The position numbers and the translations under genes are program-made. Below are positions 17,838 through 40,743 of a stretch of DNA of 63,495 nt, one piece after another. Under the pieces are notes generated by a model. It saw only the letters and a list, made by a program, of their open reading frames with translations, searched no databases and was not told the DNA's origin. The stretch is from NCBI GenBank assembly GCA_913062625.1, contig CAJXWP010000010.1, positions 1 to 63,495 on the forward strand. Reading direction: 5' to 3'. The first letter of the stretch is position 1. Every line of letters begins with the position of its first letter. This stretch comes from an uncultured Haliea sp. (GTDB lineage: Bacteria; Pseudomonadota; Gammaproteobacteria; Pseudomonadales; Halieaceae).

Positions 17838-19298
17838 CTACTTTTTTAACTGCATTTTGATCGTACTCTCTGTGGCCTTGCCATACGGCGGCAGCATGCC
17901 GCCCAGCTTGGCGATATTGAGGCTGGCCTGACGGTAGATAGACTTGGCGTGACTGAACGTTTGGAAACCTTTGAGGCCATGGTAGGCGCCCATGCCGCTG
18001 GGGCCGACGCCACCAAACGGCAAGTCCTCCTGTGCGACTTGCATAACGACGTCATTGATGCAGACTCCGCCGGAGGTGGTGCGACTGATCAAGGCCTCCT
18101 CCTCTTGCTTGTCATCACCGAAGTAATATGCCGCGAGTGGGCGAGGTTTGCTATTAATGTAGCTGATAGTTTCCTCGAAATTGTTGTAGGTGCGAATGGG
18201 GAGCAGTGGGCCAAACAGTTCCTCTTCCATCATTTTTAGGTCATCCGCCGGTTCGGGGATTAATGTGGGTGGTATTTTCAGCGTGCCCTGCTGGGTACTA
18301 AAGTCTTCTTGAGCGGGATTGATAGGAATGATTTTTTGGCCGCGCTCGCTCGCTTCGGCAAGATAGCTATTGAGACGCTCAAAATGACGCTCGTTAATCA
18401 CCGAGGTGTATTGCGGGTTGTCTAGAATTCTGGGGTACATTTGGGCTACCGCTTTTTGCGCGGCGGCGATGATCTCATGCAACTTCTCCTCTGGGACCAG
18501 AAGGTAGTCTGGCGCTAGGCAAATTTGCCCTGCGTTGAGAGTTTTACCGGTCATGATGCGGCCTAGGCTTTTCTCAATATCAGCGCTGCGGGAAATCACC
18601 ACAGGCGATTTTCCGCCTAGCTCCAGTGTGACGGGGACTAGGTTCTGCGCTGCAGCAGTGAGGATATGACGGGCGATCGAGGTTGCCCCGGTAAAAATCA
18701 TATGGTCAAAAGGTAGGCGGGAAAATGCTTGGCCGACCTCCGGTCCGCCATCGAATATGGCAACCTCTGCGGGGTCATAGGCTTCGGCGATCATTTCTGC
18801 CATGAGTGCAGAAGTGGCTGGAGTAAACTCCGACGGCTTGATCATGGCCCGATTACCTGCAGCGAGGACGCCGGCAAGCGGTGCGAATACCATATTGATT
18901 GGAAAATTCCACGGCGCAATAATGCCGACCACACCCAATGGCTGGTATTCGATGCGAGACCGCCCGCCGAGGAGGTTAAACGGGAACATAGTGGGACGTT
19001 TTTCCGGTTTCATCCAAGAGCGTAGATGCTTGATGGCGTGTTTCATAGGCGCTATCGCTGCACCGACGTCAGTCAGGAGAGTCACTTCACGCGGGCGGCA
19101 GGTAAAATCGGTATTTAGAGCATCCGTTATTCTTTCGTTGTACTTGATTAAAACATCGACGCCGCGCTGTAGCCGGTCAATGCGTGTCTCGGCAGAGACT
19201 ATACCTTCGCTTAGATAGGCATCACGCTGCATTTGAAGGGCGCTATTCATTGTCTGTTGAGGGTCGCTCAGGGTGGGTATTGGTTGCTCTGCATTCAT
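17838..19298 (-). CDS. Coniferyl-aldehyde-dehydrogenase-like NAD(P) aldehyde dehydrogenase
   Basis: An aldehyde dehydrogenase of 486 aa from the group that includes CalB, which oxidises coniferyl aldehyde to ferulate; many members act on other medium or aromatic aldehydes. The catalytic Cys is in GQICLAPDYLLVP, the general base Glu in TLELGGKSP, and the cofactor motif FTGAT is present. The start at 19298 has a clear GAGGAA ribosome site. The C-terminus is hydrophobic and basic, which is common in this subgroup and may allow membrane contact. It stands alone, divergent from the next gene. Confidence 0.85.
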   Translation of the reverse strand: MNAEQPIPTLSDPQQTMNSALQMQRDAYLSEGIVSAETRIDRLQRGVDVLIKYNERITDALNTDFTCRPREVTLLTDVGAAIAPMKHAIKHLRSWMKPEKRPTMFPFNLLGGRSRIEYQPLGVVGIIAPWNFPINMVFAPLAGVLAAGNRAMIKPSEFTPATSALMAEMIAEAYDPAEVAIFDGGPEVGQAFSRLPFDHMIFTGATSIARHILTAAAQNLVPVTLELGGKSPVVISRSADIEKSLGRIMTGKTLNAGQICLAPDYLLVPEEKLHEIIAAAQKAVAQMYPRILDNPQYTSVINERHFERLNSYLAEASERGQKIIPINPAQEDFSTQQGTLKIPPTLIPEPADDLKMMEEELFGPLLPIRTYNNFEETISYINSKPRPLAAYYFGDDKQEEEALISRTTSGGVCINDVVMQVAQEDLPFGGVGPSGMGAYHGLKGFQTFSHAKSIYRQASLNIAKLGGMLPPYGKATESTIKMQLKK

Positions 19299-27309: not shown

Positions 27310-28287
27310 ATGATTTCTCGCAAGTTAATCCGCACTGATCTTAATTTGTTAGTCGCATTACAAATTCTTCTGGAAGAGCATAATGTCACGCGAGCGGCAG
27401 AGCGATTGTCCGTCTCCCAGCCGGCGATGAGCAGGACGTTACAAAAATTGCGCGATGTGTTTGAAGACGAGCTTTTCACCCGCACGGCGCATGGCCTCGT
27501 GCCAACCCCGCGCGCCGAAGAATTACGTCGAGAGCTTCCCGCTCTGCTGGAAAGCATAGAGCATGTGTTAGGTGACGCGGCCTTCAGCCCCGAGACCTAT
27601 GCTGGCTCATTCAAGTTGTTGATGCCACCCATCTTGTGCGAGTCGCTGCTGCCGAGTCTGATGGCGGAATTATCAATCATTGCGCCGCTTGTGCAGATCA
27701 TCATGGCCGAGGTGCCACCCAATTATGAAGAGCTATTGAGAAAGGGTGAGGCAGACTTTGCTGCTTTCGTCTCTCTTGAGACGGAGCGGGACATTCATGC
27801 AGAGCCCATTGCGGCCATCGCACCGCGTTGTTACATGCGTGTTGGTCATCCCTTGGAGGACAAACAGATGGATTTACAAGATTTTCTCGCCTATCCACAT
27901 GTGCGTCTTTACCTTCCTGGCTTGAAACGGGACAACGCCAGTATGGTCGATGATGTACTCGGCCAGTATGGTGTGCTTCGCAACATCGTTCTGGAAACAA
28001 CGCAGTTTTCCTCGGCCGTTGGTGTACTTACCCGCACTGACTCGTTACTGGTGGCCAATGCGGGGTTTCAAGAGAGCGGGCTCTATCATGAGCGCATCTT
28101 GGGTCAAGAGTTGCCAGCAGAGTTGCAGCGAATGATCCGTAACACACACAGCAGCAACAGAGGCAAGATGTCGCTTATGCGTCACACCCGCACTTCACGC
28201 AGCGCACCTCACCAGTGGATGCGGACATTACTGATGAATATTCTGACTCGTTCGCCGGCTGCGGAAGCGCCTGCCAACCCTTTGTGA
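27310..28287 (+). CDS. LysR-family transcriptional regulator
   Basis: A 325-aa LysR-type regulator. The N-terminal winged helix-turn-helix (about 1-65) contains the expected NVTRAAERLSVSQPAMSRTL recognition segment; the C-terminal ligand-binding domain covers about 95-300. A Ser/Arg-rich tail of about 30 residues after the domain is longer than usual. It is followed 204 bp later by the valine-type catabolic operon on the same strand, which it may control. No ligand can be inferred. Confidence 0.88.
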   Translation: MISRKLIRTDLNLLVALQILLEEHNVTRAAERLSVSQPAMSRTLQKLRDVFEDELFTRTAHGLVPTPRAEELRRELPALLESIEHVLGDAAFSPETYAGSFKLLMPPILCESLLPSLMAELSIIAPLVQIIMAEVPPNYEELLRKGEADFAAFVSLETERDIHAEPIAAIAPRCYMRVGHPLEDKQMDLQDFLAYPHVRLYLPGLKRDNASMVDDVLGQYGVLRNIVLETTQFSSAVGVLTRTDSLLVANAGFQESGLYHERILGQELPAELQRMIRNTHSSNRGKMSLMRHTRTSRSAPHQWMRTLLMNILTRSPAAEAPANPL

Positions 28288-28491
28288 TGTTGCATTGGTT
28301 GCCTGTTTTTATTATGCAGCGGTCTGCGCTGGCCAAGAAATAGCAATATAGCTCATAATAAGCCTACTCTATTTTCTTTCGAGTGCGCTCTGGGCGTCTG
28401 TTGCCCGGCGCTCATATTTTGAACACTTTGGTTATGTGAGGGCAGCCGCCGGTTGCACCCGCGTCAGCAGCGAACAGCGGAGCTTAGGGCA

Positions 28492-29901
28492 ATGGACGAC
28501 AATCAGGAACTGATAATGGCCAAAGAGGAAGTGGCTTTGATGATGGCACGCGCCCGAGCGGCTCAGGAGCAGATCGTCGATTACACTCAGGAGCAGGTGA
28601 ACGAACTGATAACTGCTATGGTCTGGGCGGTTGGCCGTGAAGACCGCTCAGAAGAAATCGCTCGGTTAGCGATTGATGAAACGCAACTCGGTAATTACGA
28701 GGGTAAGTACCTCAAGATCCATCGCAAAACTCGCGCCACCTTGGTGGACATCATCGGAGATAAATCGGTGGGCGTGATCGAGGAAATTCCGGAGCGCAAT
28801 ATTGTGAAGATCGCCAAGCCGGTGGGGGTCATCGGTGCGTTGTCGCCGTCCACTAACCCTGAGGCGACCCCCGTCATCAAGGCCATCTCTGCGGTCAAGG
28901 GCCGCAATGCCATCATTGTCGCGCCGCATCCACGCGCTAAGCTGACGAATAAGAAAATTTGCGATTATATGCGCGAGGCTATTGTTGCGATGGGTGGGCC
29001 GGCAGATCTGGTCCAGAGTATTGATGTTCCCTCACTGGACAAGACCAATGAGCTGATGCGGCAGTGCGACCGTATTTTGGCAACTGGCGGTGCTGCCATG
29101 GTGAGTGCAGCCTATTCCTCTGGCACTCCAGCGCTCGGTGTAGGGGTCGGTAACGCCGTCATCACGGTCGATGATTCCGCCGATCTTGATGAGGCGGCAG
29201 AAAAAATCCGGCTGTCGAAAACGCTGGATCTGGCAGCGTCATGCTCTTCGGACAATTCTGTACTCGTATTTGAATCAGTCTATGACGATTTTTTGGCCAA
29301 GCTCAAGCAGGTGGGCGGTCACGTCATTGAAGGCGAAGACAAGGAGAAGTTGCAGCGCGTCTTATGGCACGACGGCCACCTCAACCCTGGCATTGTTGCG
29401 CAGCATGCTGTGGCTATCGCCGGCCAGGCTGGGATTGACCTGCCTGAAGGCAAACAGTTCCTAATCGTCCCAGAAACCGGTTGTGGTCCGGACTACCCAT
29501 TCTCTGGCGAGAAGTTGACCGTTACCATGGCCTTTTACAAGGTTGCGGACATTGATGAAGCCATCGACTTAACTAACCGGATTCAAGCCTATCAGGGCCA
29601 GGGCCATAGCTGTGGCATCTACTCTTACAATGAAGACAATATCATGAGGTTGGCGATGGCCACCCGCACGTCTCGGGTGATGGTCAACCAACCGCAGTCC
29701 GCGTCAAACAGCGGTAACGTCTGGAACGGAATGCGCCAGACATTTTCCCTCGGTTGTGGTTCATGGGGTGGTAATGGCATCAATCACAACATTACCTGGC
29801 GAGACCTGATTAACGAGACCTGGGTTTCCAAGCCACTGGCTGTCAATAAGGTCATCCCCCCTGATGACGAACTCTTTCGTGCTGTGATGGGAAGATTTTA
29901 A
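28492..29901 (+). CDS. CoA-acylating aldehyde dehydrogenase (EutE/SauS-like), possibly methylmalonate-semialdehyde-active
   Basis: A 469-aa aldehyde dehydrogenase of the acylating group that includes EutE, the AdhE N-domain and sulfoacetaldehyde dehydrogenase SauS. The catalytic Cys is residue 251 in AASCSSDNS, and ALSPSTNPEATP is the N-terminal motif of this group in place of the PWNFP motif of ordinary aldehyde dehydrogenases. It heads an operon otherwise complete for valine breakdown, in the position where MmsA is expected. Like MmsA this family makes acyl-CoA, so acting on methylmalonate semialdehyde or another semialdehyde is plausible but unproven. Two ATG codons (28492, 28516) have acceptable ribosome sites. 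Confidence 0.8.
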   Translation: MDDNQELIMAKEEVALMMARARAAQEQIVDYTQEQVNELITAMVWAVGREDRSEEIARLAIDETQLGNYEGKYLKIHRKTRATLVDIIGDKSVGVIEEIPERNIVKIAKPVGVIGALSPSTNPEATPVIKAISAVKGRNAIIVAPHPRAKLTNKKICDYMREAIVAMGGPADLVQSIDVPSLDKTNELMRQCDRILATGGAAMVSAAYSSGTPALGVGVGNAVITVDDSADLDEAAEKIRLSKTLDLAASCSSDNSVLVFESVYDDFLAKLKQVGGHVIEGEDKEKLQRVLWHDGHLNPGIVAQHAVAIAGQAGIDLPEGKQFLIVPETGCGPDYPFSGEKLTVTMAFYKVADIDEAIDLTNRIQAYQGQGHSCGIYSYNEDNIMRLAMATRTSRVMVNQPQSASNSGNVWNGMRQTFSLGCGSWGGNGINHNITWRDLINETWVSKPLAVNKVIPPDDELFRAVMGRF

Positions 29902-29930
29902 AGCGGCTACGCAGATCCAAGGAGACCGAT

Positions 29931-31091
29931 ATGGATTTTTCTCTGACAGAAGACCAGCACGCATTTATTGCCAGTGCACGCGCATTTTCAGCGGGCGTAC
30001 TGGCACCCAATGCATCGATGTGGGATGCACAGGCGATTTTTCCTAAAGACGCGCTGCGCCAGGCAGGCGAGCTGGGGTTTATGGGCATGTATGCCCCAGA
30101 GGCTGCCGGTGGCTTGGGTATGAATCGTCTCGATGCCAGTATGATTGTCGAGGAGTTATCCAGGGGTTGCACCGCGACTGCGGCGTTTCTCACTATTCAC
30201 AACATGGCGACGAGTATGGTCGGCAAATACTGCACTGATCGGGTCATCGAGCAATGGTGTCCGGACCTTGTTCTGGGGACGAAGCTTGCGTCTTATTGCC
30301 TGACCGAACCGGGTGCAGGTTCGGATGCGGCCTCACTGGCAACTCATGCGGTGCGAGAGGGTGATGATTACATCGTCAGTGGCACCAAAATATTTATCTC
30401 TGGGGCCGGAGACACCGACGTTCTAGTGGTGATGTTGCGTACTGGGGACAGCGGCCCAAAGGGTATTTCAGCGCTACTGATTCCTGCTGATGCCGCCGGC
30501 ATCTCCTATGGTAAGAAGGAAGACAAGATGGGTTGGAATGCCCAGCCCACGCGCTCGATTACTTTTGATCAGGTGCGGGTGCCGGTCGCCAATCGGCTGG
30601 GCGCTGAAGGCCAGGGCTTTACGATTGCGATGGAAGGCTTGGATGGCGGCCGTATCAATATTGCCACCTGCAGTGTCGGCACGGCTCAGCAAGCGTTGGA
30701 AGAAGCCACCGCTTACGTTCGTGAACGCAAACAATTTGACACGGCGATTGCAGACTTTCAGTCGACACAATTTAAATTGGCGGACATGCTCACCGAACTC
30801 GTGGCCGCACGGCAGATGGTGCGCCTCGCAGCCCATAAACTGGACACTGAAGACTCTCAGGCCTCGACCTATTGCGCGATGGCGAAGCGGTTTGCTACCG
30901 ACATAGGCTTCAATGTTTGTAACGATGCTCTGCAATTATTTGGTGGCTACGGTTATATAAAGGACTACCCGATGGAGCGCCACGTTCGCGATACTCGTGT
31001 GCATCAAATTCTTGAGGGTACGAATGAAATCATGCGGGTGATTGTTTCCCGCCGACTGTTAATGGATGGAGCACTGGAGGTTATCAAGTGA
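29931..31091 (+). CDS. Acyl-CoA dehydrogenase, probably isobutyryl-CoA dehydrogenase
   Basis: A 386-aa FAD-dependent short/branched-chain acyl-CoA dehydrogenase. The signatures YCLTEPGAGSDA (about 122-133) and QLFGGYGYIKDYPMERHVRD are intact, and the catalytic base Glu lies in ILEGTNEIMR. Next to 3-hydroxyisobutyryl-CoA hydrolase and 3-hydroxyisobutyrate dehydrogenase genes, the likely reaction is isobutyryl-CoA to methacrylyl-CoA in valine catabolism. Electrons would pass to ETF. It overlaps the next gene by four bases (GTGA). Confidence 0.88.
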   Translation: MDFSLTEDQHAFIASARAFSAGVLAPNASMWDAQAIFPKDALRQAGELGFMGMYAPEAAGGLGMNRLDASMIVEELSRGCTATAAFLTIHNMATSMVGKYCTDRVIEQWCPDLVLGTKLASYCLTEPGAGSDAASLATHAVREGDDYIVSGTKIFISGAGDTDVLVVMLRTGDSGPKGISALLIPADAAGISYGKKEDKMGWNAQPTRSITFDQVRVPVANRLGAEGQGFTIAMEGLDGGRINIATCSVGTAQQALEEATAYVRERKQFDTAIADFQSTQFKLADMLTELVAARQMVRLAAHKLDTEDSQASTYCAMAKRFATDIGFNVCNDALQLFGGYGYIKDYPMERHVRDTRVHQILEGTNEIMRVIVSRRLLMDGALEVIK

Positions 31092-31876
31092 GTCTAAGCA
31101 CATCAGGCAAATTGAAAGTAGAACTGCGGGGGCACACGGCTCTCATTACAATAGACAACCCTGGTGCCAACACTTGGGACACAGAGAGTCTACCCGCGCT
31201 TAAAAATTTAGTGGAAAAATTGAACGGTGAAAAAGGCGTGTATGCCCTTGTCTTGACGGGCGCTGGAGAAAAGTTTTTTTCCGCCGGAGCAGACCTCAAG
31301 CTGTTCTCCGATGGGGACCCGATAACTGCCGGCAACATGGCGCAGCTGTTCGGAGAAGCGTTTGAGGCCCTAGCAGACTTTCGGGGCGTGTCCATTGCTG
31401 CGATTAATGGGTTTGCCATGGGCGGAGGCCTAGAAGTTGCGATGGCCTGTGACATTCGTATCGCCGAGGAACAGGCGCAGATGGCGTTACCGGAAGCGAA
31501 GGTGGGTTTGTTACCCTGTGCGGGCGGAACGCAGCGCCTGTCATGGTTGGTTGGAGAAGGCTGGGCAAAACGTATGATTCTTTGCGGCGAGCGTGTCAAT
31601 GCGTCTACGGCGGAGCGTATTGGTTTGGTGGAAGAAGTTGTCTGCAAGGGTGAAGCCCTCGCGCAAGCGCTTGCGCTGGCGGAGCAGGTCGGCGAGCAAA
31701 GTCCGACGTCAATCGCTATCTGTAAACGCTTGGTGCACAGCGGCCGCAATACTGTGCTTGCTGCTGGCTTGCAGAGTGAGCGTGACCTGTTTGTGGAGTT
31801 ATTTTCTACACAGGATCAGCGTGAAGGTGTGAATGCTTTTCTGGAAAAGCGCAAGCCCGTCTGGAAGAACTGCTAA
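31088..31876 (+). CDS. Enoyl-CoA hydratase, probably for methacrylyl-CoA
   Basis: A 262-aa crotonase-fold enzyme. Both catalytic glutamates of true hydratases are present, one in GGGLEVAMACD and one in LPEAKVGLLPCAGGTQRL; the oxyanion-hole segments FSAGADLKLF and GFAMGGG are also present. Its place between the acyl-CoA dehydrogenase and the 3-hydroxyisobutyryl-CoA hydrolase suggests hydration of methacrylyl-CoA. The start is a GTG that overlaps the upstream stop. Confidence 0.88.
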   Translation: MSLSTSGKLKVELRGHTALITIDNPGANTWDTESLPALKNLVEKLNGEKGVYALVLTGAGEKFFSAGADLKLFSDGDPITAGNMAQLFGEAFEALADFRGVSIAAINGFAMGGGLEVAMACDIRIAEEQAQMALPEAKVGLLPCAGGTQRLSWLVGEGWAKRMILCGERVNASTAERIGLVEEVVCKGEALAQALALAEQVGEQSPTSIAICKRLVHSGRNTVLAAGLQSERDLFVELFSTQDQREGVNAFLEKRKPVWKNC

Positions 31877-31887
31877 GGAGCATTCTT

Positions 31888-33000
31888 ATGTCTGAAGCAT
31901 CCGTAATCTTTCAGGAACTGCCTGCAGCTTCCGGAAAACTCGGTCGAGTAACGCTGAATGTAGCGGCTACGCTGAATTCTCTCACATTGGAAATGGTCGA
32001 TCTGTTGCAAGAAAAACTGGATGTCTGGCTGCACGATGATGCCATCTCCGCTATTTTTATTGACGGCGCTGGCGAGAAAGCCTTTTGCGCCGGAGGCGAT
32101 GTGCAGGCGCTGCATCGATCTGCGGTCGCCACGCCCGGCGGTCCCTGCGATTATGCAGAGAAGTTTTTCGCGCGGGAATATAGATTGAACTACACGCTTT
32201 ATACCTATCGCAAGCCAATCATTTGTTGGGGCCACGGCATTGTGATGGGTGGCGGTCTGGGTGTGATGGCCGGATGTTCGCACCGGGTGGTGACTGAAAA
32301 AACGCGCATCGCTATGCCTGAAGTCACGATTGCCCTGTTTCCCGATGTAGGTGGCACCTGGTTCTTGAATCATATGCCAGCAAGCTCCGGGCAGTTCCTG
32401 GCCCTGACCGGCGCATCAATCAATGCTGCAGATGCGCTCTATACAGGCATTGCTGATCGCTTTATTTCCAGTGAGCGTAAATCCGAAGTGTTAGCACAGC
32501 TTCTGTGTCAGGACTGGGAATCGGAGCCTTCGACTCATCATGCGTTGGCTCATTATGTGTTGCGTTCGTTCGCAAAACAAAGTGCTGATCAGTGTCCGGT
32601 CGGTCAAGTTGAGTCCCATCTAAGGTCTATCAATACCTTGTGTGACGGAGATGACATCCATGGGATTATCGACAATATTGTGTCTTTGCAGACGGACGAC
32701 CTGTGGTTATCCAAGGCCAGTGAAAGTTTGTCTCACGGATCTCCACTTGCCGCACTATGGATTTCGCGGCAGTTGATAGCGTTGCGCCATGCCTCACTGA
32801 AAGAGGTTTTTCAGTCTGAAATACAGCTGGTCACCAATATTGTCCGACACCCGGAGTTTGCAGAGGGGGTCCGCGCCCTATTGATCGATAAGGACCGCAG
32901 GCCTTCATGGCAGTATCAATCCTCGCGTGACGTGCCGGCAGATGTGTTGGCAGCTTTCTTTGATGCGCCCTGGGATATTAACCCTTTGGCTGATCTATAA
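31888..33000 (+). CDS. 3-hydroxyisobutyryl-CoA hydrolase
   Basis: A 370-aa crotonase-superfamily thioesterase that releases free 3-hydroxyisobutyrate from its CoA ester. The length (100 residues more than a hydratase), the CAGGDVQALH and GIVMGGGLGVMAGCSHR motifs and the MPEVTIALFPDVGGTWFL segment are characteristic of this subfamily. The final residues (WDINPLADL) are a typical C-terminus. The free acid then goes to the dehydrogenase encoded 26 bp downstream. Confidence 0.92.
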   Translation: MSEASVIFQELPAASGKLGRVTLNVAATLNSLTLEMVDLLQEKLDVWLHDDAISAIFIDGAGEKAFCAGGDVQALHRSAVATPGGPCDYAEKFFAREYRLNYTLYTYRKPIICWGHGIVMGGGLGVMAGCSHRVVTEKTRIAMPEVTIALFPDVGGTWFLNHMPASSGQFLALTGASINAADALYTGIADRFISSERKSEVLAQLLCQDWESEPSTHHALAHYVLRSFAKQSADQCPVGQVESHLRSINTLCDGDDIHGIIDNIVSLQTDDLWLSKASESLSHGSPLAALWISRQLIALRHASLKEVFQSEIQLVTNIVRHPEFAEGVRALLIDKDRRPSWQYQSSRDVPADVLAAFFDAPWDINPLADL

Positions 33001-33026
33001 TTTGTAACTGTTAGAGGGATAACGTC

Positions 33027-33923
33027 ATGGCAGCTGTAGCGTTCATTGGTCTTGGCAACATGGGCGGCCCAATGGCCAGCAATCTAATCAATGCCGGGCA
33101 TGCGGTTGTTGTTTTTGACCTTTCGCAGGCCGCCTGTGACCGGTTGCAGGTACAGGGGGCCTCTGTCGCCGGTTCAGCGGTGGAGGCCGTGGCCAGAGTT
33201 GATTATGTCATTTCGATGCTTCCGGCGGGCAAGCATGTTGCTGAAATTTATCTCGGAGATAACGGTTTGTTGTCAACACTGGGCGCTTCTGTCACCGTTC
33301 TTGATTGCAGCACCATTGATGCTGCGACTGCGCGGCGAGTCGGTGAGGCGGCGGCCGAATTGGGCATAGGCTTTATGGACGCGCCAGTTTCAGGCGGAGT
33401 GGCCGCGGCTGCGGCAGGCACCTTGGCATTTATGTGCGGTGGCGGCGCTGACACGTTTGAGAAGGCGCGAGTGATTCTGAAAGATGTGGGTAAAAATATC
33501 TTTCACGCTGGCCCTGCAGGTGCGGGGCAGGTCGCCAAAGGTTGTAATAATATGCTCCTAGCTATTCACATGATTGGGACCTGCGAGGCACTGGAAATGG
33601 GAGCGCGCAATGGTTTGGATCCAAAGATATTGTCTGAGATTATGCTGGCCAGTTCCGCGCGCAACTGGTCATTGGAAGTCTATAATCCCTATCCCGGCGT
33701 TATGGACACCGCCCCAGCGAGCGACGATTATCAGCCAGGATTCATGGTTGATTTGATGGTTAAAGATCTGGGTTTGGCGATGGAAATTGCACAGCAATGT
33801 GATATCGATAATGCCATGGGGCAATTGGCCGCAGAGCTTTATGGCCAGCATCAACGGTCTGGTAACGGGAAACGTGACTTTTCCAGTATTTTGCAGAAAT
33901 TGCAAAACGAAGTTGCCCCTTAA
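33027..33923 (+). CDS. mmsB: 3-hydroxyisobutyrate dehydrogenase MmsB
   Basis: A 298-aa NAD-dependent beta-hydroxyacid dehydrogenase that oxidises 3-hydroxyisobutyrate to methylmalonate semialdehyde. The nucleotide site FIGLGNMGGPMASNL is at residues 6-20, the substrate motif DAPVSGGVAAA at about 118-128 and the catalytic Lys in GQVAKGCNN. The product would be the substrate of a semialdehyde dehydrogenase, which in this operon can only be the acylating enzyme encoded at the start of the cluster. Confidence 0.92.
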   Translation: MAAVAFIGLGNMGGPMASNLINAGHAVVVFDLSQAACDRLQVQGASVAGSAVEAVARVDYVISMLPAGKHVAEIYLGDNGLLSTLGASVTVLDCSTIDAATARRVGEAAAELGIGFMDAPVSGGVAAAAAGTLAFMCGGGADTFEKARVILKDVGKNIFHAGPAGAGQVAKGCNNMLLAIHMIGTCEALEMGARNGLDPKILSEIMLASSARNWSLEVYNPYPGVMDTAPASDDYQPGFMVDLMVKDLGLAMEIAQQCDIDNAMGQLAAELYGQHQRSGNGKRDFSSILQKLQNEVAP

Positions 33924-34158
33924 ACCAGAAGCCCCCGTAGCCAAACAACACGGAAACAGTTTCAGTGTAGGGTCTGATTACACCAGCATTGACCCCCTGT
34001 CCAGGTCACAGGTGTTTGGCAACGCAGTTCAAGCGGCGACGTGTTGCAAGGTGAGCATGGCGGAGTAGGCAGCGCATTCAGATTGGCCTATTCGGACATG
34101 GATCAGGCGCTCTCTAAGGCGTAATTTGAGGCATTACAAATCACTGCAGGGGGTTAAT
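33924..34158. other. Gap after mmsB with possible decayed coding sequence
   Basis: No complete gene is seen in these 235 bp. A short stop-bounded frame ending at about 34120 reads GGVGSAFRLAYSDMDQALSKA at its end, which looks like protein-coding sequence, but it has no clear start or ribosome site. It may be the remnant of a lost gene. Confidence 0.3.
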
Positions 34159-34962
34159 ATGTCATTTGTCACCGTGGAAAAACCGCGTCCTTACATCACG
34201 CTTATTACTTTGAATCGACCTGATCGCATGAATGCTATGGCTTTTGATGTGATGGTGCCTTTCAAAGAAGCACTGGAAGAGGTTAGTTTTGACAACGATA
34301 CTCGGGTCGTGATCGTGACGGGCGCGGGTGCGGGTTTCTGCGCCGGCGCTGATCTGCAAGACCCCGGCTGGTTAGCGATTTTTGACGGTCTGACTATTCC
34401 TGGTATCGCGCGTCGGGCCATGAGAATTTTAGATGATGTGGTCAAGGCAATTCAAAATATGCACCAGCCTGTCATTGGCGCCATTAACGGTCCAGCCATT
34501 GGTGGCGGATTCTGCCTTGCCATGGCAACCGACATTCGTTTGGCTGCGGATAGTGCGTACTTTCGCCCAGCGGGGATTAACAATGGACTGACGTCCGCCG
34601 AGTTAGGTTTGAGTTATTTGCTGCCGCGGGCGATAGGAACCAGTCGTGCTTTTGACATTATGTTGACGGGCAGGGATGTGGACGCCCAGGAGGCACAGCG
34701 GATTGGCATGGTGTCGAAGGTTGTGCCTCAGGAAGCATTATTAGAGGAATGTTATGCCATTGCCGAGCGTATCAATGGGTTTAGTCAGTTGGGCGTGGAG
34801 CTGAGTAAACAGATGCTGTGGGCAGGCATGGATGCGGGCAGTTTACACTCTCACATGAATCATGAGGGACATGCTCAACTGTTCGTGCGCATGACCACCA
34901 AAAATTTTGAAGAGGCGATTAAGGCGCGTAAGGAAGGGAGGTCTCCAGACTTTAAAGACTAG
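34159..34962 (+). CDS. Enoyl-CoA hydratase/isomerase family protein
   Basis: A second crotonase-fold protein, 267 aa, with the CoA-site segments FCAGADLQ and GAINGPAIGGGF. The second catalytic Glu is kept in LTSAELGLSYLLP, but the first position, Glu in true hydratases, is not acidic here (GGGFCLAMATD). Thus it may be an isomerase, or may act on a substrate other than a simple enoyl-CoA. The ATG at 34159 follows an AGGGGG ribosome site. It lies 235 bp after mmsB and may belong to the same transcript or be independent. Confidence 0.82.
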   Translation: MSFVTVEKPRPYITLITLNRPDRMNAMAFDVMVPFKEALEEVSFDNDTRVVIVTGAGAGFCAGADLQDPGWLAIFDGLTIPGIARRAMRILDDVVKAIQNMHQPVIGAINGPAIGGGFCLAMATDIRLAADSAYFRPAGINNGLTSAELGLSYLLPRAIGTSRAFDIMLTGRDVDAQEAQRIGMVSKVVPQEALLEECYAIAERINGFSQLGVELSKQMLWAGMDAGSLHSHMNHEGHAQLFVRMTTKNFEEAIKARKEGRSPDFKD

Positions 34963-35009: not shown

Positions 35010-35600
35010 TCAGCGGTCGACGGTTCTAACAAAAAGGCCTTGCAGTAGCGGTGAGTCTTTACTTTGCGAGAGCCACAGGATTGCCGGGGCAAGTGTCGGA
35101 ACAATGAGTACGCTGAATTGGTAAGATATCGCGATCACCTCCGCGTTGGGAACGAAAACCCCCGCTTGATTAAAAAAGGGTGCGCCAACGTTGACCATCA
35201 GTGTCTTCAGGCACAGACACACGAGGCCGCATATAAACAGTACATAGAGAATGAGCACACCCCACAGGTAGTCAGCCAGATAGGTTTTTCTCTGCGTGGC
35301 AAAATGTAGGGCCGTATAGAAGGGTAAAGAGTAGGAAAGAACTCGTGTGTTTATCTGGAACCCTAGGCGATAGTCGGCCTGACTTAAGGGAATAAGCTGT
35401 CCGGCTTTCTCACCGAATTCTGTCATTAAAATGGCCTCCGGGCCACTGGCACTGAGCGCGTTCACTACATCGGGAAACCAGTTACTGAGCAGGCTGCCGG
35501 CAATGCCGATAGCGGGCAGTCCTATTGGCGCATTAGCGACGGTCCAGAGTCCAAAACATGGAATCAGAAGAGCAAATACGAACAGTAAAAACTGTCGCAT
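35010..35600 (-). CDS. Exosortase H-associated membrane protein
   Basis: A 196-aa membrane protein with a hydrophobic N-terminal segment and further helices at about 100-130 and 155-180. It follows exosortase H by 10 bp on the same strand, in the place where a conserved membrane partner of XrtH is found in other bacteria. Its biochemical role is unknown; assisting sorting or processing is an inference from synteny. The ATG at 35600 has no strong ribosome site, which suggests translational coupling to xrtH. Confidence 0.65.
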   Translation of the reverse strand: MRQFLLFVFALLIPCFGLWTVANAPIGLPAIGIAGSLLSNWFPDVVNALSASGPEAILMTEFGEKAGQLIPLSQADYRLGFQINTRVLSYSLPFYTALHFATQRKTYLADYLWGVLILYVLFICGLVCLCLKTLMVNVGAPFFNQAGVFVPNAEVIAISYQFSVLIVPTLAPAILWLSQSKDSPLLQGLFVRTVDR

Positions 35601-35610
35601 GTGATGGGGT

Positions 35611-36117
35611 TCAACCAACCGTAGTCTCCAGAGGCTTCGCCTGCGTTGACAGGTAGCGCAGGTAAACAATAAAAACGACCAACACGTCCAGCATGATTAA
35701 GGCGGGCCAAAGGTATAGATGTATCCAAGAAAAATATTCCATATTCCAGTCGCCTAGATAAAATAGACTAATAATACGTACAATATTTAGTACCTGTATC
35801 GCAAGAAATCCCAAGGCAATGGCGATGGCGCGAGCTCGCCAGCTGGCAGGGAAAGCGCATATAGCGGCAATTAAGACGATAGTGGCCTCTACGCCGTTGC
35901 AACCCGCTTCGATTGAAACTGCAAATCCACTGTCTTTGAATTGTAGAATTTTTCCATAAGCAACGACAGAACTGTCGAAAGGTAAAATAAGAACAGCGCT
36001 AAGACGAGCCAACATTGCGGTAAACGGGACAATAACGTGTTCCTGAACCGGAGCGAGTAATTCGAGTGTGAACAGTGCTAGCAGTATGAGCAAAAAAGTC
36101 GTTACAAATCGCAGCAT
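35611..36117 (-). CDS. xrtH: Exosortase H (XrtH)
   Basis: A 168-aa inner-membrane cysteine protease/transpeptidase-like enzyme of the exosortase/archaeosortase superfamily, with five to six helices. The triad is visible: Cys73 in EAGCNGVEA, Arg114 in NIVRI and His133 in WIHLYLW. The short form and the sequence around the Cys fit XrtH, whose targets carry a C-terminal IPTLxxWG signal, a membrane helix and basic residues. No such target was found in this window. ATG 36117 is used; a TTG seven codons upstream is also possible. Confidence 0.8.
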   Translation of the reverse strand: MLRFVTTFLLILLALFTLELLAPVQEHVIVPFTAMLARLSAVLILPFDSSVVAYGKILQFKDSGFAVSIEAGCNGVEATIVLIAAICAFPASWRARAIAIALGFLAIQVLNIVRIISLFYLGDWNMEYFSWIHLYLWPALIMLDVLVVFIVYLRYLSTQAKPLETTVG

Positions 36118-36493
36118 GTATTTAGGCTTAAGTGACAAAATTGAATATTAGCACGTTGCCACTGGTCTCGACTATCGATTGTCACGCCGAGTGTATATAG
36201 CACAACATGGGCTGATTCTCGATACTGCCTGAGTAGTCCACGCGCGCTCATGCCCATCGCTCTTTGGGGCGTGATGAGGAAACTTGTCATCAGCTAAAAA
36301 TGAATCGAACTGACCTTGTACTACTGCACAGAGATTCTGCAGTGCGGTGATTGGAAGTGAATCGACTGTGCCATTGTCTGGCGGCGGAACAAGATTTCTC
36401 AGGCCGATTGCGTCCATGTTTGGCGTGATGTTGATTCTGATTCTGATTCTGTAGTTCTTAGTGACCACCTTATTGTGCTGTGATGCCACCGAG
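36118..36493. other. 376-bp gap between exosortase H and the TauE/SafE permease
   Basis: No gene is supported here. A 121-codon minus-strand frame (36172-36537) crosses the region, but it starts inside the upstream permease gene and its signal-peptide-like N-terminus is only the complement-frame reading of a membrane helix. A GATTCT hexamer is repeated three times in tandem at 36433-36450. The xrtH promoter should be here. Confidence 0.4.
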
Positions 36494-40161: not shown

Positions 40162-40743
40162 ATGTTAGAAAAAGAATTAGCCCAAGCTGCAAAATTGGCA
40201 GAAAATGCGCATAAAAAAGTAGAGCAGATTCGCAAGAAGTTGGTCTCTGATTCGGAAAAGGCGCATGTCCGTGTAAAGCGTGAACTCGCCGCTTCACGCA
40301 AGAGACATCAGACTGCTAAAGCTAGGTTGAAAAGCGCTAAGGTTGCACTTCGAAAAAAGGTAACACCTGAAAACAAAAAGAAAGTTGATCTGTTGGTGAA
40401 GCAGGCGCAAGAGTTTGGAGAGTCACTGTCGAAGGCCGCTGAGACGGCTTATGATGCTGCCGAAAAATTCGTGGCGGTGAAGACTGAGGCTGTTCTAGCC
40501 GATCGTAAAGCCAAGGCTGCAAATCAAGCAGCGAGTTTGGTTGAAAAGGCGGCAGCCAAGGCCAAGAAGAAGCCCGCTGCGAAGAAAAAGGTCGCTGCTA
40601 AGAAGAAGCCCGCCGCCAAGAAAAGGCCCGTAACTAAGAAGAAAGTTGTCGTGAAGAAGAAACCCGCTGCAAAGAAAAAAGTTGTCGCGAAGAAGAAGCC
40701 CGCTGCAAAGAAAAAAGCGCCAGCCAAGAAAAAGGCCGCCTGA
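40162..40743 (+). CDS. AlgP/histone H1-like lysine- and alanine-rich protein
   Basis: A 193-aa protein with two parts. Residues 1-130 form a charged, probably coiled-coil helix. Residues about 131-193 are a low-complexity tail built from KKKPAA and KKVVAK-type units, very similar in composition to eukaryotic histone H1 tails and to the Pseudomonas regulator AlgP (AlgR3). Such tails bind DNA without strong sequence preference, so a nucleoid or regulatory role is likely. The gene is monocistronic and followed by a clear terminator. Confidence 0.8.
   Translation: MLEKELAQAAKLAENAHKKVEQIRKKLVSDSEKAHVRVKRELAASRKRHQTAKARLKSAKVALRKKVTPENKKKVDLLVKQAQEFGESLSKAAETAYDAAEKFVAVKTEAVLADRKAKAANQAASLVEKAAAKAKKKPAAKKKVAAKKKPAAKKRPVTKKKVVVKKKPAAKKKVVAKKKPAAKKKAPAKKKAA
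40561..40740 (+). repeat. Imperfect KPAAKKK-coding repeats
   Basis: Roughly 180 bp of degenerate repeats of AAGAAGAAGCCCGCTGC and related units encode the basic tail of the AlgP-like protein. Arrays like this change in length by slippage or recombination, as known for algP in Pseudomonas. Confidence 0.75.

Follow-up and report, generated by a model that had tools for sequence, protein, structure and literature searches.

The described enzyme for methylmalonate semialdehyde in valine catabolism is MmsA, which decarboxylates. SucD, a CoA-acylating aldehyde dehydrogenase, is known from clostridia and not from valine operons. We analysed a 63,495-nucleotide stretch of DNA from an uncultured Haliea sp. 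(Pseudomonadales; Halieaceae; assembly GCA_913062625.1, contig CAJXWP010000010.1), here called the window, meaning the whole stretch. It contains an operon of valine-degradation type whose first gene encodes an enzyme of the SucD/SauS/AdhE branch (Table 1). It is highly likely that this gene has assumed the role of mmsA in valine catabolism, with methylmalonate semialdehyde as the very probable substrate of its enzyme; substrate and activity are predictions from sequence. A sequence-only reading of the window had proposed such a non-orthologous replacement, yielding propionyl-CoA or another product such as methylmalonyl-CoA, and the idea of a replacement gained support from the absence of mmsA, the co-occurrence with mmsB and an exchange seen within one genus.

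In the proposed mechanism, isobutyryl-CoA would be oxidised, hydrated, hydrolysed and oxidised again by the four downstream enzymes, yielding methylmalonate semialdehyde. Cys251 of the first enzyme would attack the aldehyde, the hydride would pass to NAD(P)+ and the acyl group to CoA; Lys79 and Ser252 may grip the substrate carboxylate in the manner of SucD Lys70 and Ser243. The product would be methylmalonyl-CoA, feeding directly into epimerase and mutase, or alternatively propionyl-CoA and CO2, as with MmsA.

Absence of mmsA and occupancy of its operon position

The window genome (G000; 3.07 Mb, 117 contigs, 96.7% complete) had no mmsA above the cut-off of model TIGR01722 (448.5 bits), the best of its 15 matches reaching 271 bits. 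The window gene was absent from these 15 matches, and no MmsA model appeared among the best 25 of its 33 NCBIfam matches. The sequence-only reading had named a canonical mmsA elsewhere in the genome as the finding that would speak against it; none above the cut-off was found in the window genome or in a complete relative carrying the gene (G158; single contig, 100% complete). A further aldehyde dehydrogenase of the general superfamily lies in the window at 17937–18944 (minus strand) and matched TIGR01722 weakly (95 bits).

The survey proposed in that reading covered 194 genomes of the order, G000 included, and detected the window enzyme in 21: the window itself, 18 full or nearly full relatives at 62–85% identity, a 66% fragment in G141, and two partial matches (72 and 70%) at contig ends in G023. 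Among the matches listed, the next relatives after this clade were no more than 41% identical. We found mmsA above its cut-off in 121 of the 194 genomes and mmsB in 95. Among the latter, 14 had the clade gene without mmsA, six had both, 73 had mmsA only, and two had neither (G050, and G002, which is 75% complete). The clade gene was thus present in 14 of the 16 mmsB-bearing genomes that lacked mmsA (Fisher p = 2e-10 for clade gene versus mmsA among the 95, a statistic that ignores relatedness), and 14 of the 20 carriers with mmsB lacked mmsA. The remaining carrier, G115, had no match for mmsB, and the contig ends within its operon. In G050, one region (C54:1–14000, L193) holds mmsB, an acyl-CoA dehydrogenase (ACAD) and an enoyl-CoA hydratase (ECH) in a row, with a thiolase-like frame upstream as judged by eye. 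This genome has prpB and neither mmsA nor the clade gene above threshold, leaving the step unfilled here as well.

In 14 of the 21 carriers the clade gene stood first in a complete five-gene operon, and in two more (G115 and G141) the operon was cut by a contig end. Since ACAD lay directly downstream on the same strand in 26 of the 30 best mmsA loci, the operon's first position is mmsA's own slot. A wider set comprised the best 80 of 362 named loci found, labelled as Halieaceae and other gammaproteobacteria and as Sphingomonadaceae and other alphaproteobacteria; the closest proteins (94% identity) came from metagenome-assembled genomes (MAGs) labelled Haliea and Halioglobus. A looser form of the operon, in which ACAD, mmsB and either hydratase or hydrolase follow the clade gene on its strand, was present in 62 of the 80, with a median distance of 32 bp between clade gene and ACAD, and the hydrolase preceded the hydratase in most alphaproteobacterial loci. 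Recurrence of the arrangement at these frequencies, in the order and among the named loci, greatly exceeds chance. Cultured carriers include Haliea salexigens DSM 19537 and Novosphingobium lentum. Another 13 loci had a partial operon, eight of them with less than 3.2 kb of DNA left downstream. Five had none, among them L169, where the operon lies alongside in divergent orientation, and L178, where just 0.6 kb of sequence remains. A second collection of 49 genomes, drawn from 50 of the 80 loci, overlaps the first (at least three, with identical match coordinates, correspond to G077, G134 and G029). It contained mmsA above the cut-off in only two carriers (L162 and L180), leaving 47 without.

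The most direct comparison came from three genomes under one genus code, of which G158 has the clade gene and G106 and G180 have mmsA (94% mutual identity). DNA homology between G158 and the other two was 75–76% upstream, across the divergent AraC-family regulator of G158, broke at the first gene, and returned at 79% over ACAD, ECH and hydrolase and at 77–78% over mmsB. Because the flanks of the exchanged genes are homologous, the clade gene and mmsA share one slot. In a tree of 48 ACAD rows the label changed five times, and the mmsA rows G040, G106 and G180 were nested within the window's family. This appears to be a clean case of one operon gene having been exchanged, in either direction, for an enzyme of another branch within one genus. 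Two loci of the genus code of G115 and G141 (L186 and L187, in G012 and G054) have ACAD, ECH, hydrolase and mmsB preceded by a 189-aa frame and not by an aldehyde dehydrogenase; mmsA above the cut-off lies elsewhere in both genomes.

The mmsA neighbourhood was examined in five of the six genomes with both genes (G030, G063, G148, G174 and G192; the sixth is G099). In all five the valine operon held the clade gene and mmsA was located elsewhere. It adjoined the omega-aminotransferase AptA in G030 and lay within an iolG-iolD-iolC cluster in G174, neighbours that we take to mark malonate-semialdehyde pathways. The mmsA of G030, G174 and G192 formed one subtype (61–62% mutual identity, 46–51% to nine other mmsA compared). 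That of G063 was 67–76% identical to eight others compared outside this subtype, and that of G148 was 69% identical to the mmsA query; both lie away from the operon. Branched-chain keto-acid dehydrogenase was also considered as possible support: an E1 match of 269 bits was present in the window genome; G077, G106 and G040 had no strong E1 match except in long frames (>700 aa).

Several observations weigh against a replacement of MmsA. We know of no activity measurement for any clade member. The window genome is fragmented, and its other aldehyde dehydrogenases, scoring up to 271 bits against TIGR01722, could perform the step. Six of the 21 carriers also have mmsA. The clade gene is unlinked to the operon in three carriers (G047, G127 and G099), stands beside the hydrolase only in G003, and lies at contig ends in G023, where its position cannot be judged. 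Lastly, the two candidate carboxylate-holding residues are shared more widely than the clade, as described below.

Enzyme family and active site

The best NCBIfam model for the window enzyme was SauS (NF047625; 500 bits, below its cut-off of 600), followed by AdhE and EutE models whose cut-offs were missed by more (PRK13805, 418 versus 951; TIGR02518, 356 versus 620; PRK15398, 208 versus 403). A tree of 44 rows placed the clade, with full support, as sister to SauS, although the program warned of long branches. An AlphaFold model built on the 44-row alignment had a predicted local distance difference test score (pLDDT) of 92, and its best match in the PDB was SucD (8cek; template-modelling scores 0.91/0.95, 37% identity). 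An earlier model, built on 19 rows, reached a pLDDT of 67 and was set aside as poor. The EutE/SauS-like label given in the sequence-only reading therefore held for the acylating branch and for SauS as top model; the nearest structure was SucD, not EutE or SauS. The reading's placement of the catalytic cysteine in the motif AASCSSDNS was borne out, residue 251 being correct with the start at 28492, and the cited sequence ALSPSTNPEATP was present.

In SucD, Lys70 and Ser243 are described as holding the distal carboxylate in the accessible part of PMC10249356, and these residues aligned with Lys79 and Ser252 of the window enzyme. Both residues were present in all 33 clade rows, and both were alanine in five of five AdhE-type rows (so called from open frames of 875–966 aa). 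They also occurred in two of two SauS and four of four other relatives. We concluded that Lys79 and Ser252 probably point to an acidic aldehyde, not to methylmalonate semialdehyde in particular. In all, 34 alignment columns separated the clade from the 11 other rows, including Arg102, Glu124, Trp411, Arg415 and Gln416.

Product and alternative substrates

We tentatively propose a non-decarboxylating valine pathway, in which the clade turns methylmalonate semialdehyde directly into methylmalonyl-CoA; the probability of this route is somewhat short of even. In our analysis methylmalonyl-CoA appears slightly the likelier product over propionyl-CoA, because retention of the carboxylate would be expected from an enzyme like SucD. 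Methylmalonyl-CoA mutase was present in 21 of 21 carriers of the order versus 14 of the 75 mmsB-bearing genomes without the clade gene, two of these 14 matches (G060 and G093) being weaker and in 569-aa frames. It was also present in 46 of the 49 carriers of the second collection; the three without it are MAGs (L150, L175 and L162). The gene prpB was above its cut-off (354.4 bits) in none of the 21 carriers, with sub-cut-off matches of 271 bits in G158 and 262 bits in G068, and was found in 12 of 19 genomes tested among the 75: 11 of 14 mmsA genomes picked by hand from other families or genera, none of three mmsA genomes of the window's family, and G050 but not G002. Because mmsA members of the window's family share the presence of mutase and the lack of prpB, this pattern is not specific to carriers.

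It is quite possible, at a probability also below even, that the same replacement occurred and the enzyme decarboxylates as MmsA does, giving propionyl-CoA, with the mutase association a mere effect of ancestry. In one family, and even in a single genus, some members have mmsA and others the clade gene, so both enzymes may form the same product. Relatedness confounds the link between gene and mutase: each trait changed five times in the 48-row ACAD tree, and a test on independent pairs gave p = 1, for which reason we rejected the association as proof of the product. Moreover, the window genome holds in one cluster a mutase, an epimerase above its cut-off, a MeaB-like GTPase and a biotin carboxylase/carboxyltransferase pair that passes no NCBIfam cut-off. 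With this pair beside the mutase, the genome does not need a dehydrogenase that forms methylmalonyl-CoA. In the second collection, two of the 49 carriers had prpB above the cut-off together with mutase (L149 and L183), and L162, a MAG among the three without a mutase match, carries mmsA as well as the full operon. Against decarboxylation stand the mutase in every carrier of the order and the lack of prpB there, compared with the hand-picked mmsA genomes, and the chemistry of SucD, which according to the available part of PMC10249356 holds a distal carboxylate and is no decarboxylase; its substrate has a gamma-carboxylate, which makes the comparison a loose one. Absence of a carboxylase was also considered as proof of the direct route and rejected, since carboxyltransferase-family matches occurred in 24 of 24 genomes, none above the mmdA cut-off. 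Beside the mutase cluster (L103:22–4058, in G000:C1) we noted a second, shorter CoA-mutase (653 aa), then a MeaB-like GTPase as judged by eye, and a CitE/malyl-CoA-lyase-like protein on the plus strand; this stretch might belong to an ethylmalonyl-CoA-type route.

Replacement of MmsA, with either product, can be set against two other roles for the enzyme. The operon might serve another C3 route, from acryloyl-CoA or 3-hydroxypropionate to malonate semialdehyde, the enzyme then making malonyl-CoA or acetyl-CoA. The best NCBIfam model for ACAD was indeed acryloyl-CoA reductase (370 bits, far below the cut-off of 640), and such enzymes are often promiscuous. We consider this improbable, because mmsB passes the 3-hydroxyisobutyrate dehydrogenase model, relatives hold mmsA in the same operon, and the separate mmsA subtype sits with the malonate-semialdehyde pathways in two of the genomes with both genes. 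Finally, a true sulfoacetaldehyde dehydrogenase (SauS) merely located in the operon is very improbable and was rejected: SauS is the top curated model and the sister group, but eight clade members (the window enzyme and seven relatives at 489–526 bits) fall below 600 where the order's two SauS score 690 and 708, one true SauS adjoins a clade gene in G047, and the clade is separate, fully supported and conserved in its operon with valine genes. In that genome (L072:7819–10602) the SauS of 708 bits and the clade member (75% identity) are adjacent and divergent, and the 19-kb stretch around them matched no other valine-operon gene.

Operon features and comparison with described enzymes

The operon consists of five same-strand (plus) open frames at 28492–33923, with intergenic gaps of 29, −4, 11 and 26 bp. 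A scan of 28200–34200 for promoters and terminators gave counts at chance level (4 promoter-like sites versus 4.1 expected; 7 terminator-like versus 5.9), so that the case for a single transcription unit comes from spacing and conservation. The sequence-only reading had described ACAD, hydratase, hydrolase and mmsB here, and all four were found in place, three of them above curated cut-offs. The operon context makes ACAD a putative isobutyryl-CoA dehydrogenase. By raw score the hydrolase was closest to DspII (375 bits, below the cut-off of 600).

Table 1. Coordinates and assignments of the operon genes and their neighbours in the window
Feature	Position	Strand	Remarks
LysR-type regulator, upstream; possible operon regulator (predicted)	27310–28287	+	stays upstream in part of the Halieaceae loci
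CoA-acylating aldehyde dehydrogenase of SucD/SauS-like clade; proposed methylmalonate-semialdehyde dehydrogenase	28492 (or 28516)–29901	+	Cys251, His372; Lys79 and Ser252 proposed carboxylate holders
ACAD, proposed isobutyryl-CoA dehydrogenase	29931–31091	+	substrate inferred from operon; no NCBIfam cut-off passed
ECH, proposed methacrylyl-CoA hydratase	31088–31876	+	PRK09076, 431 bits (cut-off 286); substrate inferred
3-hydroxyisobutyryl-CoA hydrolase	31888–33000	+	PRK05617, 344 bits (cut-off 274); Pfam ECH_2
3-hydroxyisobutyrate dehydrogenase (mmsB)	33027–33923	+	TIGR01692, 388 bits (cut-off 291.6)
Second enoyl-CoA hydratase, downstream; possible neighbour outside operon	34159–34962	+	above PRK05864 cut-off

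Elsewhere in the window, two small frames at 35010–36138 (minus strand) resemble by eye an exosortase with an accompanying membrane protein, and 40162–40743 appears to encode a protein rich in Lys and Ala whose histone-H1-like tail is made up of KKPAAKK repeats.

The valine pathway and the enzyme superfamily are both known, and the combination is new as far as our literature search shows. No description of an EutE/SucD/SauS-type methylmalonate-semialdehyde dehydrogenase was found in titles and abstract openings, a scope that left subscription journals largely outside, and the accessible part of PMC9007349 makes no mention of valine or mmsA. Our analysis proposes an enzyme for a missing valine-degradation step in gamma- and alphaproteobacteria, one to which the curated models used give no specific name. 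With methylmalonyl-CoA as the product, the valine pathway would be shorter, the carbon released by MmsA would be kept, and a biotin carboxylase and one ATP would be spared. Such a direct route would be spread across Halieaceae and Sphingomonadaceae and tied to mutase-bearing bacteria. The enzyme would then amount to a methylmalonyl-CoA reductase found in nature; a synthetic scheme calls for this step, according to a figure legend in the available part of PMC8706239.

Among described enzymes, EutE and AdhE belong to the same branch and have the catalytic cysteine and histidine in common with the window enzyme, which however falls below their cut-offs; the AdhE-type rows differ at the carboxylate positions. 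SauS forms the sister clade at about 40% identity and shares Lys79 and Ser252; it differs in that the clade stays under the SauS cut-off, has another neighbourhood in G047 and would act on a carboxylate, not a sulfonate. SucD (8cei, 8cej, 8cek) apparently shares the fold, the catalytic cysteine and histidine and the carboxylate-holding lysine and serine at 37–38% identity, whereas its own substrate is a linear C4 compound. MmsA/IolA (TIGR01722) shares the operon slot, the proposed substrate and CoA acylation with the window enzyme, but belongs to a different branch of the aldehyde dehydrogenase superfamily, and the clade profile reaches its solved structure 1t90 only at an E value of 0.001.

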